Positions 25,904 to 31,955 of a stretch of DNA of 64,000 bases are shown one piece after another (the stretch's first letter is position 1; the number at the start of each line of letters is the position of its first letter). The notes beneath the pieces were generated by a model. That model was given only the letters and a program-made list of their open reading frames with translations. It did not search any database and was not told the DNA's origin. Where the stretch lies: the NCBI RefSeq assembly GCF_009909615.1, contig NZ_WWNE01000018.1, forward strand, positions 184,513 through 248,512. Direction: 5' to 3'. This DNA comes from Acidiluteibacter ferrifornacis (lineage in GTDB: Bacteria; Bacteroidota; Bacteroidia; Flavobacteriales_E; Vicingaceae). The position numbers were made by a program, and so were the translations under genes.

Positions 25904-26311
25904 TTTATTGTTATTTATTCTAAATCTATTTGAGGGTGCAAAATTAGATAATCCAATAGATAATAACTAATGTTGGTTGTAAATTAATAAAACGAATTCA
26001 TGAAAAATGGGTGGGTGAGTTAACTTTTTATATAGAAGCGTTTTAGCTTATAATGTGTTGGTCGGTAGTCGTATTCCAATTTGGAGATCAAACAAAACGC
26101 TTCTCCATATTTCGCTAAACATACTCATTTACCAATAGAGGTTGGTTTGAGCACTAAATATGATCTAGCATGCAAGGGATAAACTTTCAATGCATAAAGA
26201 ACTGATTGATAATATTTTTATTTATTTTCGGGAGTAGGAAATTAAGACGCTTTTTTATTAGATGAATATCAATCATTTTAAGCGACTATTTTACAATGTA
26301 ATTGCTTATTT
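25904..26311. promoter_or_regulatory. Divergent intergenic region with ndk promoter box
   Basis: 408 bp without a gene I can support. On the minus strand TAATTTTG (25946 to 25939) matches TAnnTTTG and lies about 35 bp before the ndk start. The remainder, upstream of the plus-strand membrane gene at 26312, is AT-rich with no recognised repeat or RNA. Confidence 0.45.
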
Positions 26312-27803
26312 ATGTTCAAAATTATTGACGTTAAACGTGTCTTAATACTATGTTTTTTAGGTTCACTTTTCAGGATTATATATGGGTTAAGGTATGAGCC
26401 ATGGTTACTAGCGCCTGATCATTCTGCTTGGGAGTTAATCATAGAAAAAGGTGTTTTTCGTTATGACCACCTTATTCATTATCCACATGAAGGAGGAACA
26501 ATTCTTGTTTCATTGATTAGTCTCCTAGTTGAATTTGTTACAGACTTTAGCTCACTAGCTATTTCGGCTATCTTAATAGACTTTGTAGTTAGGTTTTTGC
26601 AGATTAGTGTTGTGGAGAAGGTGTTCGGGAAATCAATTGGCTTATTGTTCGGTGTTTGGACTATTTTTTCTACGCCAACCATCATTCCTTGGGGAGTATT
26701 AAATTTTGGATTACATTCTATTTCAAGTGTTTTTCCTTTTCTACTTATTCTTTTTTTTTCCCAAAAGGAACAAAGTATAAAACAGAACCTGTGCGCTGGA
26801 ATTTTTCTTGGTTTGACAGTATGGTTTTCGTACAGCAATTTGATATTAATTCCTGCTTTTTTTATTTTCAAACTGTTTGAACCGAATAAAACCAGAAACC
26901 TGTTTTATGCACTACTTAGCTTAATAGGAGTGCTTATATTTCATTTAATGGTTCGTGCATTTTTTGATGCAGGATTTCATTTAAGTCAAATAGGATTGAT
27001 GTCCATACGAGGTGAGTCATTTTCACTGACTGAAATTGATTTTCTTGATAGATTAACTAGCCTTCCGAGAATAATAGCGAATTCAGGGATTGCTTTAGAA
27101 GATCCTTTAATCCCTGTAAAGGCAAGTCGTTTAATTTATTACCTCTATGGGGTTTTGTCAATAGTTGGGTTTTATGCCATCTATAAAAGGGAGATAATTA
27201 ATCAGAGTATTTACTTCATCTGTGGAGTTGTTATATTGTTTCTTTTAAGCTATATTTTTAGTCCATTTTTTCATTTAGAAAAATCGATTCATTTTATTTC
27301 TTTTCGACACCTGACGTATATACTCCCTTTAATTGCGTTAATAATTATTAATGGTCTTGCCCCGTTAAAACAGAGGTGGATGGTGATCACATTTTTTGGT
27401 TTTCGTTTTTTTTCAATCTATTCAAATGTTTACAATGAGAAAACCACCAGTGGATGTCATCAATAAAAAAGCAATAGGATGGGTTTTAGGAACAAAGTTC
27501 GGACACGATCCGCATCAATTAATTGCAATTATTGAAGACAATAAAGCAGAAAGTCAAATGCTTATTCAGGGAATAGGTTGGGGAATTTCTACTGCAATCA
27601 TGACTAATGATCAGATAAAATTCCAAGATAAGATTAACCAACAAGTAGATTTATTTTTCAAATACCCCATTTCCTATCATGAAGATTTATTAGAAGGAAT
27701 TGAATTTTCATATAGCGACAAAGTAAAACCGAAGTTGGATCAAGGTCTTATGAATGAAGTTGAAGAGGAAATTAGGAAAAGATCGGCAACTCCATCAAAT
27801 TAG
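26312..27803 (+). pseudogene. Polytopic membrane protein, GT-C-like, broken by a frameshift
   Basis: The first frame (26312-27466) encodes about 10 membrane segments starting MFKIIDVKRVLILCFLG. It resembles GT-C glycosyltransferase-like or dolichyl-phosphate-mannose transferase-like proteins, but no motif proves it. It ends in a short non-homologous tail. The second frame (27396-27803) overlaps it and encodes a soluble, charged continuation (VDVINKKAIGWVLGTKFG onward). A T8 run at about 27406-27413 is where the frames meet: one T fewer would fuse them into one protein of about 497 residues. This could be a true mutation, slippage or a sequencing error. Confidence 0.6.
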
Positions 27804-28099
27804 TTTTTTTAGAATGAGTGATTATCTTTAATCGATGGTTATTATCGGTATTCAATCAATTGGATGGCACCTATTCGATCGGACTTGTAGTCTGTTTGCG
27901 TCTATATCAGGATTATCTTCTCCTGATTTTTTAGTTTAGAGATTGAGTTCAACTTCAACCAAAAACATCTAACTATCTTCATTTTTATCCATCAGGTGTT
28001 TATACCCTTTTCACTAAAACGGGTATTTGTACTATTTCTTTACGAATTCATAGAGTCTAGCTTTGATCAAAATATTAACTATCAATTAAACTTAAAGCT
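27804..28099. other. Intergenic region upstream of the GH-A gene
   Basis: Nearly 300 bp without a gene. An imperfect hairpin lies near 28000-28025 (ATACCC-TTTT against AAAA-CGGGTAT) with unknown role; no clear TAnnTTTG box was picked out. Confidence 0.35.
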
Positions 28100-29230
28100 A
28101 TGTCAACAAAACACGCAATAGACAATATTCCAGGTCTTAAAAACATTAAAGGAATCTGTTACTCACCAGCACCATCCGATGATGCGCCTGCTCCACCACA
28201 AAAATTTTTCGATACAGATTTTACCAATTCTTGTTTCCCGTTACTTTGGGACGATGCAAATAGTGGGAGAGGAGATATTAAGAACCTAGCAAGCATGGGT
28301 GTTAATTTTATCCATTTGTACAATTGGAGTGTTCCTCCAGCACCTGGTGCAGCTTTAGGTAGTTATCAACGATCTCATACTACTTTTCTGAAGAAGTGTG
28401 GCGATGAAGGGATTAATGTGTTTATTCCTATTTCTAATTACTTTTTAGAGCAAATCCATAGTGGTAATGGTTCAACTGTTAAAACTCAAATTGCAGCAAT
28501 GGTGAATGAGGCCTATAATGGAGGCACCACTCCTTATGGTGGAGCGGCAATGTGGGGAATTGGAAATGAGTATGATTTAGCTCCCTCGTCTGAATTTGGT
28601 GTTGACGATGTGGTGACAGCAATGGAATATTTGGTAGATGCTGAAAAATTACAAAAAATAGAATCCGCTAATTTGCTACCGGTTACATCTCCTGTTTCTT
28701 TCGCAGTGCTTAAAGGTGCTAGTGGGCCAGGTATTGAGGGAGTTAAAGCACTAAAGACTGCCATTGAAGCAAGTTCTAAACTTGGTAAATCATTTTGGCA
28801 AACACGATTTGTAGCTTCAACAAATCCAAATAACAGTGGGTCTTTTGTTAATAATTACATTGCCAATACATTCCCTCAAGCTTTTCCTGATACTTATTTT
28901 TTCTTTTCAGAAATGGGAATAGATATTTTGGCAGGCTCATCTGTCACCACAGAAAAAGAGCAAGCTGATTACGTTTTGGATCAATTGAACAATACCTCTC
29001 CAAGTGGAAATTTTGTAGGTCGTTGCGTGTTCCAATTTTTAGATCAAACTGCTATGAAATCCGGATCTCAGGCAACATTTGGTATGAATAAGTTTTCAGG
29101 TAATTCAACTGAAGGAATCATTCAACCTCAAAATTATGTACCAGGTGGAGGAGCTTCTTACAAGGTGGATACTCTTACAAAAAAACCATTATATAATTCG
29201 GTAATGTCTTCCTATAATCCATTGAAATAG
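28100..29230 (+). CDS. Clan GH-A TIM-barrel glycoside hydrolase-like protein
   Basis: A 376-residue protein. DIKNLASMGVNFIHLYNW (about 59-76) and WGIGNEYD (152-159, candidate acid/base Glu157) recall clan GH-A enzymes, especially beta-1,3-glucanosyltransferase-like GH72 or GH17 families. FFFSEMGID has candidate nucleophile Glu271. There is no signal peptide at the N-terminus (MSTKHAIDNIPGLKN), unusual for an enzyme acting on polymers. A start further upstream was not found. Substrate unknown. It stands alone, followed by a strong terminator. Confidence 0.65.
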   Translation: MSTKHAIDNIPGLKNIKGICYSPAPSDDAPAPPQKFFDTDFTNSCFPLLWDDANSGRGDIKNLASMGVNFIHLYNWSVPPAPGAALGSYQRSHTTFLKKCGDEGINVFIPISNYFLEQIHSGNGSTVKTQIAAMVNEAYNGGTTPYGGAAMWGIGNEYDLAPSSEFGVDDVVTAMEYLVDAEKLQKIESANLLPVTSPVSFAVLKGASGPGIEGVKALKTAIEASSKLGKSFWQTRFVASTNPNNSGSFVNNYIANTFPQAFPDTYFFFSEMGIDILAGSSVTTEKEQADYVLDQLNNTSPSGNFVGRCVFQFLDQTAMKSGSQATFGMNKFSGNSTEGIIQPQNYVPGGGASYKVDTLTKKPLYNSVMSSYNPLK

Positions 29231-29255
29231 ATCTTATTTGCTTTGATAATGTTTG

Positions 29256-29288
29256 GCCCTACAAGTACAAATACTTGTAGGGCTTTTT
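29256..29288 (+). terminator. Rho-independent terminator after the GH-A gene
   Basis: GCCCTACAAGTA (29256-29267) pairs perfectly with TACTTGTAGGGC (29272-29283), loop CAAA, followed by TTTTT. Confidence 0.9.
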
Positions 29289-29581
29289 AATAGTGTTAAA
29301 TCTGTTTTATCAACACAATTGAATGGTAATTTGACAATTAAAAAGACTTCTCAATACAATGGGGATATATAGTATCATAGTCAAACCAGTTTAAAGGTTT
29401 TCGATCAGGAAAAAAGTGAGTCATTTATAGCTATCATGTATGCTTTTGTAGTTATTAGCTAGATGGGCAAGTTTAGTTATCTTTGTCCCCTTGTTTTAAA
29501 AATTAAAAGGCCAGGATACTCTTATTTTGGCATTTTTCAGTTTTTAGACTTTCTATACCACACAACTTTTAGTTAAAATAA
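29289..29581 (+). promoter_or_regulatory. Upstream region of the sulfatase-GDPD gene
   Basis: About 290 bp without a gene. TATCTTTG at 29478-29485 matches TAnnTTTG and would leave a leader of roughly 90 nt before the ATG at 29582. Nothing else stands out. Confidence 0.45.
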
Positions 29582-31804
29582 ATGATTGAGAGAATTACTT
29601 TTTTTATAGATCAGTTTGGAGATAATTATAATCTATTCTATATCCTTTTGTTCTACACAGCTTTTCTATTTCTGAATGCTAGTATTTCTTCCAAAATAGT
29701 TCGGTCCATCACTGCAATAACTACCTCATTATTCCTGATTCTGCAACTTTCTTCGCTTTACATCACACAAACCTTTATTGGTTATCAATTTTTTGTGCAC
29801 TTCAATGTTAGGGGAGTTCAGGGTTTTAAAGGATTTTTCATTGCTCACATTAGTCTTGCTGTTGTCCTTTTTATTTTTTCAGTCTACACTTATATTCAAT
29901 CAAATAATTGGTTAAGAAAGTTGAAAATTAAGTACTTAAAATTATACGCAATCCTTTTGTCGATTGTATTATTGTTTATAGTGCTAAATAAAAGTAGTTT
30001 TTTAACAGATAGCAAACCCTTACTTTCTATATTAAAGGCAAGAGAAAGTTCATTTGCTGAAGTCATGAAGAAAAATGACTTTCAAGGTTATATCACACCC
30101 GACCAAACCATAGCCAAACAAGGTAAGAATATTATTATTATTTCCATGGAATCTTTGGAAATGGGATTTCTTAAAGGAAAATTCGCTTCTTTAACACCGA
30201 ATCTTCAACGTTTGATGAAGTATTGGAATTTCTATCCTGTACAACAAAATTTTGGCAGTGAGTGGACTAGTGGGTCACTTTATACCTATTTAACGGGGTT
30301 TCCGGCTTTTTTTGGAGGACACGCTAACGAAATTTTTGAGACCGCATATAAGTCTGACATCAATAGCATTACTTATGCTTTAGAGAAGGCAGATTATACA
30401 ATGACCTATATGAATGGGGATGCTAATCACTCTGGTGTAAAAGAAATACTCAACACTTTAAATATCGATAAAGTAATAGATCGACAGAATAGTGAGGGTA
30501 ACCATACGTTTAGTTTTTATGGGTTGCGAGATAAGGATTTGTTTGATTTAGCTAAAAATGAAGTGAAGGAATTAAAGCAAGAAGAGGAGCCATTTGCCTT
30601 GATTATTTCAACCACAGACACCCATTTTCCAAACGGGATTTATGATGATCGATTTGAAGGTATAATTGGAGAAAAGGACTCAGAATTAGAGTTTATGGTA
30701 GCTGCTTTGGATTACATGATTGCTGAATTTATAGATTTTTTGGAGGAAGAAGGAGTTTTAGAAAATACGGTGGTATATCTATTTCCTGATCACCTAAAGA
30801 TGGGTAATCCCAGAATGTTTAATGGAACAGGAAAAAGGGAATTGTATTTAATAACTAACGCTTCAAAGAGAAAATTGAAGATTGATACCACAAATGAACT
30901 TTACCAAATTGATTTACCAAGAATTATTCTAAATGGAGCAGAGGTTGAGAATAATTTAAAGTTTCTTTCTGATTATATTCCTCATGATGAGGATAAAAAT
31001 GAATATTTAAAAAGAAATGTGGATTTAATCACTCAAATCAATACAAATGGAATTTATCGATATGGAGACAAGTCAACGCATAAAATATCAGAACGGTATG
31101 AAGAATATAAGAAAGATACAATGCGATTTATCGCTCATGCAGGAGGGAAGATAAACGGATATTTTTATACCAATTCTAAAGAAGCTTTAGATCAATCTTA
31201 TAAAAAGGGATTTAGGATGTTTGAATTGGATTTCTTAAAAACTTCGGATAACAAATTCGTTGCAGCTCATGACTGGGAGAGCTGGGCAAAACATGCCAAG
31301 TACACTGGAACTATTCCTCCTACACATTCAGAATTTCTAGCTCACCCCATTTATGATATTTTTACTCCTTTAGATATGGATAGTGTGAACTTATGGTTTC
31401 AAAATCACCCTGAAGCTATTTTGGTTAGCGATAAGGTTAACGAACCATTAGCATTTTCTAGTCTTTTTATTGATCGATCTCGCTTAATTATGGAGTTGTT
31501 TGATTCTACATCTGTAAGTGAAGGATTAAAAGCAGGACTACTTTCGGTAATGCCCTCCCAAACCGTCGTACAAAACTTGAAATTAGAAGATGTTATAAAA
31601 TGGAAGCAAGCAGGAATTAGGTATGCTGCGGTTTCAAGAAAATTTATACTCTCAAATGAGAAATTATTAGAAGAGTTAAGAAAGAATGAAATTAAAGTAT
31701 ATGTATACAATGTTAATCAGGAATATGACAAGGATGAAGACTTTGTCGCAAAATTTGAATTAGACTATGTTTTCGGGATGTACGCCGACAAATGGAGTTT
31801 TTAA
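29582..31804 (+). CDS. LtaS-like sulfatase-superfamily transferase fused to a GDPD domain
   Basis: A 740-residue fusion. Residues 1-140 hold about four membrane spans. Residues 180-470 form an alkaline-phosphatase/sulfatase domain of the LtaS/MdoB type: ISMESLEMGF (Glu190), candidate nucleophile Thr229 in GSEWTSGS, STTDTHFP and FPDHLKMGN (Asp403, His404). Residues about 515-740 resemble glycerophosphodiester phosphodiesterase: FIAHAGG (His519), FELDFLKTSDNK (Glu548, Asp550) and AAHDWESW (His563). One half could transfer and the other hydrolyse phosphoglycerol groups. The fusion is seen; the joint function is inferred. No frameshift is visible. Confidence 0.8.
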   Translation: MIERITFFIDQFGDNYNLFYILLFYTAFLFLNASISSKIVRSITAITTSLFLILQLSSLYITQTFIGYQFFVHFNVRGVQGFKGFFIAHISLAVVLFIFSVYTYIQSNNWLRKLKIKYLKLYAILLSIVLLFIVLNKSSFLTDSKPLLSILKARESSFAEVMKKNDFQGYITPDQTIAKQGKNIIIISMESLEMGFLKGKFASLTPNLQRLMKYWNFYPVQQNFGSEWTSGSLYTYLTGFPAFFGGHANEIFETAYKSDINSITYALEKADYTMTYMNGDANHSGVKEILNTLNIDKVIDRQNSEGNHTFSFYGLRDKDLFDLAKNEVKELKQEEEPFALIISTTDTHFPNGIYDDRFEGIIGEKDSELEFMVAALDYMIAEFIDFLEEEGVLENTVVYLFPDHLKMGNPRMFNGTGKRELYLITNASKRKLKIDTTNELYQIDLPRIILNGAEVENNLKFLSDYIPHDEDKNEYLKRNVDLITQINTNGIYRYGDKSTHKISERYEEYKKDTMRFIAHAGGKINGYFYTNSKEALDQSYKKGFRMFELDFLKTSDNKFVAAHDWESWAKHAKYTGTIPPTHSEFLAHPIYDIFTPLDMDSVNLWFQNHPEAILVSDKVNEPLAFSSLFIDRSRLIMELFDSTSVSEGLKAGLLSVMPSQTVVQNLKLEDVIKWKQAGIRYAAVSRKFILSNEKLLEELRKNEIKVYVYNVNQEYDKDEDFVAKFELDYVFGMYADKWSF

Positions 31805-31947
31805 CGTGAAGGCATGCCAAGTTTTTGTAGCCGTTTAAAAGGGATAGTTTTATTTTAGATGCAATTCATAATGGACTGCACTTTTCATTTTCTGATTAAT
31901 TCTATATACCTCCATATTATTTTACTTTCAGATTCCTTCTAGAATTC

Positions 31948-31955
31948 TATCTTTG
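31948..31955 (+). promoter_or_regulatory. -7 box of the glycosyltransferase operon
   Basis: TATCTTTG matches TAnnTTTG and lies 21 bp before the TTG start at 31977. Confidence 0.55.

Follow-up and report, generated by a model that had tools for sequence, protein, structure and literature searches.

A rare, conserved fusion of a sulfatase-type phosphoglycerol transferase domain and a divergent GDPD-type domain in three genera of one Bacteroidota family

The window, the whole stretch of 64,000 nucleotides of Acidiluteibacter ferrifornacis DNA that was analysed, encodes a membrane protein that joins a sulfatase-type phosphoglycerol transferase domain to a C-terminal domain of the glycerophosphodiesterase (GDPD) type (Table 1). 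This fusion is genuine, conserved and rare, and represents a new domain architecture built from known enzyme families. That a transferase and a phosphodiesterase share a single chain suggests a coupled role for the two. The reading that we favour, at slightly less than even confidence, is that a membrane-anchored enzyme attaches phosphoglycerol to a surface glycan and uses its divergent GDPD domain to tailor phosphodiesters of the same pathway.

The reading frame is unbroken over all 740 residues, and the opposite strand carries many stops in the frame read. Hydropathy reveals four hydrophobic segments (residues 17–36, 43–61, 79–106 and 114–143). Both Pfam cut-offs are passed, by Sulfatase (E 9.8e-16, 58.4 bits against a cut-off of 25) and by GDPD (PF03009; E 1.6e-6, 28.9 bits against 23.6, strongest over residues 526–564). 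The preliminary description had proposed a one-chain membrane protein of this length and domain content, and this holds; the domain identities and the fusion itself are corroborated by the Pfam matches, by alignments to LTA-synthase structures, by a profile–profile GDPD match and by full-length homologues in two other genera.

Table 1 Coordinates of the fusion gene, its domains and the surrounding features in the window
Feature	Position	Strand	Description and basis
Block missing from two congeners	25972..31919		5.95 kb; ORFs 26312, 27396 and 28100 and the fusion; DNA flanks 83–88% identical
Terminator-like hairpin, 13 pairs	29255..29284	+	3' of the preceding gene; longest stem of 4 sites
TATCTTTG, possible Bacteroidota-type -7 element	29478..29485	+	Upstream of the fusion
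Fusion ORF P0001	29582..31804	+	740 residues: membrane anchor, sulfatase-type phosphoglycerol transferase domain, GDPD domain
Membrane region, residues 17–143	29630..30010	+	Hydropathy; PRK12363 match begins at residue 20
Sulfatase-fold transferase domain, residues 182–416	30125..30829	+	Pfam; alignments to 4uop, 3lxq, 4uoo and 2w5q; invariance in three sequences
GDPD-type C-terminal domain, residues 508–740	31103..31801	+	Pfam, hhalign, PDB profile search, model and fold comparison, residue table
Transferase codons E190, T229, H348, D403, H404	starts 30149, 30266, 30623, 30788, 30791	+	
GDPD codons H519, E548, D550, H563, D617	starts 31136, 31223, 31229, 31268, 31430	+	

Proteins that align with the fusion end to end are encoded in two other genera of the family (L002, 748 residues, 49% identical; L003, 749 residues, 44% identical), and all three full-length homologues match both Pfam families (E ≤ 0.01). 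Because L002 and L003 encode the whole fusion protein, a sequencing or assembly error is very unlikely. A survey across Bacteroidota genomes, which the preliminary description had set as a check, found the fusion in three genera and showed it to be rare: a profile of its C-terminal domain matches 3 of the family's 46 genomes and, at E ≤ 1e-8, 3 of 395 sampled genomes of the class. Among sampled genomes of the phylum, this profile matches 1 of 395, the window's own. A wider C-domain profile (A3) matches 6 of 395 phylum genomes; the five matches besides the window's own are frames of 262–300 residues, therefore too short for the fusion, and two of them (L028 and L030) are GDPDs of the ordinary kind. 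When 60 relatives were searched with the fusion protein, 14 had a match, three of them full length; a search of the order (46 genomes) gave 11 matches, three full length and eight inside profile positions 90–416. Among the matches listed for a whole-protein profile in the 395 class genomes, 26 matches in 23 genomes, three are full length and 23 lie inside positions 92–476. These fusion searches would overlook a sulfatase joined to a canonical GDPD.

One sulfatase-type match (G068:C8:92342-93139) lies in a 908-residue open frame, longer than the others, and may be another fusion. In the plasmid collection 13 records matched, none of which covers 80% of the query, and the phage collection contained no match to the C-terminal domain of the fusion. 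A scan of genome contigs returned one locus, a relative of the sulfatase part at 22%, and a search of viral contigs a single locus (L042) with a match that spans 16 residues, which was left aside; viral contigs searched for the GDPD subfamily and for one GDPD of the window's genome yielded none. A literature search, with most subscription journals outside its reach, found no paper on a sulfatase–GDPD fusion.

For the transferase half, the search of solved structures identified LTA primase (4uop, 3.8e-16) and VP1736 (3lxq, 1.4e-13), as well as the LTA synthases 4uoo and 2w5q. E190, T229, D403 and H404 align with the Glu, Thr and Asp-His of LTA synthases that we take to be metal and nucleophile residues, the Thr presumably being the nucleophile, and H348 aligns with the His of an H-x-P motif. 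In the T229 column, 2w5q carries Thr and 2w5r carries Ala. All five positions are invariant across the three fusions, in which 99 of 241 columns are invariant (chance 0.011). The recognizable catalytic residues first attributed to this domain are thus found on the LTA-synthase pattern.

The nearest NCBIfam models are phosphoglycerol transferase I (PRK12363, 5.1e-26, residues 20–410) and OpgB (9.5e-17), and phosphoglycerol transferases are the best-matching curated transferase models for all three fusion members. The fusion fails the PRK12363 equivalog cut-off (91.5 against 572 bits), which makes it a relative outside that equivalog, and its score on the OpgB model is also far below the equivalog cut-off. 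The breadth of the Sulfatase Pfam family and these low bit scores would suit a transferase half that transfers a different group (phosphoethanolamine, for example) or that is a plain sulfatase or phosphatase. We consider this very unlikely: the membrane and catalytic parts align together with phosphoglycerol transferase I, and the best solved relatives are the LTA primase, the LTA synthases and VP1736.

Comparison of profiles of five members of the GDPD half and three ordinary GDPDs (hhalign) gives a probability of 98.5 and an E of 2.8e-15 over 211 columns, and aligns H519, E548, D550 and H563 with the catalytic His and metal residues of GDPDs. The earlier claim that this domain, too, keeps its catalytic residues stands for these four but not for the rest of the site. 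A520 stands in place of the Arg of the HRG motif, a residue with a role in the GDPD family, and no residue corresponds exactly to the third metal Glu: hhalign places S616 in its column, next to the invariant D617. At the Arg position every fusion has Ala, and the five sequences as a whole have Ala or Gly; the Prevotella relative has Asp at the E548 position, and in L002 the second His is followed by Asn (HN for HD). The five sequences share 19 invariant positions out of 233, including three of the four canonical catalytic positions (chance 0.0018); with D617, picked after inspection, the count becomes four of five (H519, D550, H563 and D617; chance 1.5e-4).

The change from HRG to HAG and the displacement of the third metal Glu mean that hydrolysis by the GDPD half is not assured. 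The domain may still be active without the Arg, since lysoplasmalogen phospholipase D (7ym0), in the available part of its record an active enzyme, also has AHAGG, with Ala at the Arg position. The altered motif, the displaced Glu and the HN of L002 would fit a GDPD half that has lost catalysis and that binds or positions a phosphoglycerol-bearing glycan. This we judge distinctly unlikely, given that H519, D550, H563 and D617 are invariant in all five sequences, among so few invariant columns, and that HAGG is also found in an active relative.

The fold of the C-terminal domain was assessed in several ways. A PDB search with a profile of the three C-domains matched GDPDs (9f49 at 6.2e-6, the rest weaker). 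In the window's own genome, the Pfam GDPD search picked up two other genes but not the GDPD domain of the fusion, which is therefore highly divergent. A model of the domain (mb8529bd7668a) is of modest quality (pLDDT 59.1, pTM 0.52), and its input alignment included nine ordinary GDPDs from viral contigs that served solely as fold input. It matches 3no3 (Foldseek E 5.0e-8; Z 13.9, r.m.s.d. 3.8, 201 residues), although the input GDPDs may steer the model; because GDPDs were in the alignment, the match is support for the TIM-barrel fold of GDPDs and not proof of it. The top row of the fold comparison that is neither a GDPD nor a glucanase stands at 10.8. The VIA comparison placed a multidomain glucanase (7wwc, 7ww4) among the GDPDs, a likeness on which the literature search found nothing. 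A fold predicted from the single sequence was too poor for use (pLDDT 37.8). One weak match had suggested a particular tie to AvrBs2-like phosphodiester enzymes, an idea that was dropped because ordinary GDPDs outscore the fusion on that model in three of four cases.

The fusions sit in or near glycan loci. Two glycosyltransferase genes (31977 and 34128) and one methyltransferase gene lie downstream in the window. Of the other two, one is part of a polysaccharide locus (L034) that encodes glycosyltransferases, a flippase and a pair of acyltransferases, of which one immediately precedes the fusion; the other (L033) lies downstream of PorP/SprF and upstream of a GWxTD protein and, two genes on, a GT2. 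The PorP/SprF gene speaks for the Bacteroidota identity on which the preliminary description's premise, a Gram-negative devoid of classic lipoteichoic acid, would rest. The neighbours thus differ among the three fusions, so that no acceptor is indicated.

Two stand-alone relatives of the C-terminal domain were found in the plasmid collection (tblastn). In Acetoanaerobium noterae (L026 4533-7636), the gene for a 401-residue GDPD is followed after about 90 bases by that for a 602-residue LTA-synthase-type sulfatase. In Prevotella sp. oral taxon 299 (L027 3800-6195), a gene for a 343-residue stand-alone GDPD lies between LicD and cytidylyltransferase genes. These split relatives, one case each, hint that transferase and GDPD may be functionally coupled. 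The Acetoanaerobium GDPD also bears a copper-amine-oxidase-N-type domain. The genome of the window encodes two further sulfatase-type genes (frames of 625–626 residues) and two stand-alone GDPDs; no GDPD lies beside either sulfatase-type gene in the flanks examined.

The fusion gene lies in a block that is missing from two congeners, one of them a genome 69% complete. In these, the nucleoside diphosphate kinase gene and the 31977-type glycosyltransferase gene are 187 and 175 bases apart, against 6.07 kb in the window. The DNA flanks align to the congeners until 25971 and again from 31920, with approximately 5.95 kb replacing about 61 congener bases. The block was either gained in the window's genome or lost from the congeners. 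Five of its six 1-kb segments have a G+C content of 31–34% and one of 38%, and the DNA on either side 35–40%. Integration linked to a tRNA was rejected, as the window has none, and no direct repeats stood out at the edges of the block. In one congener (G002; L041 13431-15741), the genes that correspond to glycosyltransferases 31977 and 34128 look disrupted or shortened.

Within the block, ORF 26312 (26312-27803 region) encodes a polytopic membrane protein of 384 residues with a faint PMT-type Pfam match far below the cut-off. It seems to run on in another frame as ORF 27396, and the T run near 27410 appears to be a frameshift, a phase-variable site or a sequencing error. ORF 28100-29230 encodes 376 residues with nothing over the Pfam cut-off and no PDB match; by eye it looks like a glycosidase-type barrel, which is an impression only. 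ORFs 26312 and 28100 do not travel with the fusion and were rejected as its partners, since the other 45 genomes of the family contain no homologue of either.

The hairpin upstream of the fusion is one of four terminator-like sites found, against a shuffle mean of 3.4. A second TATCTTTG word, which we take to be a Bacteroidota-type -7 motif, is located at 31948, upstream of the next gene. Together, the hairpin and the two words suggest that the fusion gene may form a separate transcription unit. Sites resembling sigma-70 promoters are uninformative (25 found against 26.7 in shuffles), and a longer word of promoter type occurs in the window about as often as chance predicts (12 times, against 11.6 expected).

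In the reading that we favour, the protein would be an inner-membrane enzyme with both catalytic domains facing the periplasm. The OpgB/LtaS-type domain would take phosphoglycerol from phosphatidylglycerol, with T229 as the nucleophile, and then place it on an extracytoplasmic glycan. The divergent GDPD domain would cleave phosphoglycerol diesters that belong to this pathway and so trim the decoration or turn it over, and both domains may act on one substrate. That one half might remove what the other half builds, as the preliminary description suggested, is a plausible hypothesis.

Stereochemistry is the main difficulty. According to the available part of PMC7086022, GlpQ-type GDPDs have a strict specificity for sn-glycerol-3-phosphoryl groups and do not cut intact LTA, whose sn-glycerol-1-phosphate units derive from phosphatidylglycerol. 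On this basis, a canonical GDPD would not reverse what the transferase makes. The GDPD half of the fusion is non-canonical (HAG for HRG, shifted third ligand) and may therefore have another specificity. Its action could be sn-1-specific, it could be directed at other diesters (lyso-phosphatidylglycerol, for instance), or the domain could do no more than bind.

In a sharper form of the same idea, which we regard as unlikely, the protein would be both writer and editor: the transferase would add sn-glycerol-1-phosphate from phosphatidylglycerol, and an sn-1-specific GDPD (or one that cyclizes or transfers without hydrolysing) would control how dense its own partner's decoration of a Gram-negative surface glycan becomes, with the new specificity arising from the changes to the canonical GDPD site. 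A GDPD half that cuts phosphoglycerol derived from phosphatidylglycerol would have a stereospecificity absent from the GlpQ enzymes of PMC7086022, as its available part describes them, and would show Gram-negative regulation of a teichoic-acid-like decoration on surface glycans.

The stereochemical problem is escaped if the GDPD half acts on the donor side, cleaving lyso-phosphatidylglycerol, glycerophosphoglycerol or similar co-made diesters to free glycerol phosphate and leaving the glycan untouched. Such recycling, which we see as somewhat unlikely, has a precedent in the Staphylococcus aureus GDPD relative LpgD, which turns lyso-phosphatidylglycerol into LPA via a cyclic intermediate (PMC10404611, available part), and the AHAGG motif shared with 7ym0, active as far as its record goes, fits it too. 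However, the Prevotella relative lies in a glycan locus (LicD, cytidylyltransferase) where the donor is probably not phosphatidylglycerol, and LpgD and LyPls-PLD, although present in the fold comparison, are not near the top.

Among known systems, OpgB/MdoB, phosphoglycerol transferases I and II of Escherichia coli, are like the fusion in layout, as the PRK12363 match reflects: OpgB has three to four membrane segments, then a periplasmic sulfatase-type catalytic domain (PMC3818809, available part). They differ in their genomic setting and in that this part of the description has no GDPD domain, and the fusion scores far below their equivalog cut-off. A capsule locus containing a phosphoglycerol transferase gene is reported in the available part of PMC12111749. 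LtaS and LtaP share the catalytic Glu, Thr, His and Asp-His pattern (2w5q, 4uoo and 4uop), whereas the fusion carries an attached GDPD, belongs to a family with T9SS genes and aligns with them in the catalytic half alone. GlpQ/GDPD phosphodiesterases have the His, E-x-D and His in common with its C-terminal domain, which differs in HAG for HRG, in the displaced third metal Glu and in being joined to a transferase. Lysoplasmalogen-specific phospholipase D (7ym0) has the same AHAGG in a GDPD-type enzyme, but acts on lysolipids and has no fused transferase in the available part of its entry. WhyD of Streptococcus pneumoniae, a membrane-anchored hydrolase of wall teichoic acid with a GlpQ domain, has seven membrane segments and, in the available part of PMC9208761, no transferase domain; like the fusion, it holds a GDPD-type domain at the membrane, and it provides a precedent for the tailoring of a polymer by such a domain.
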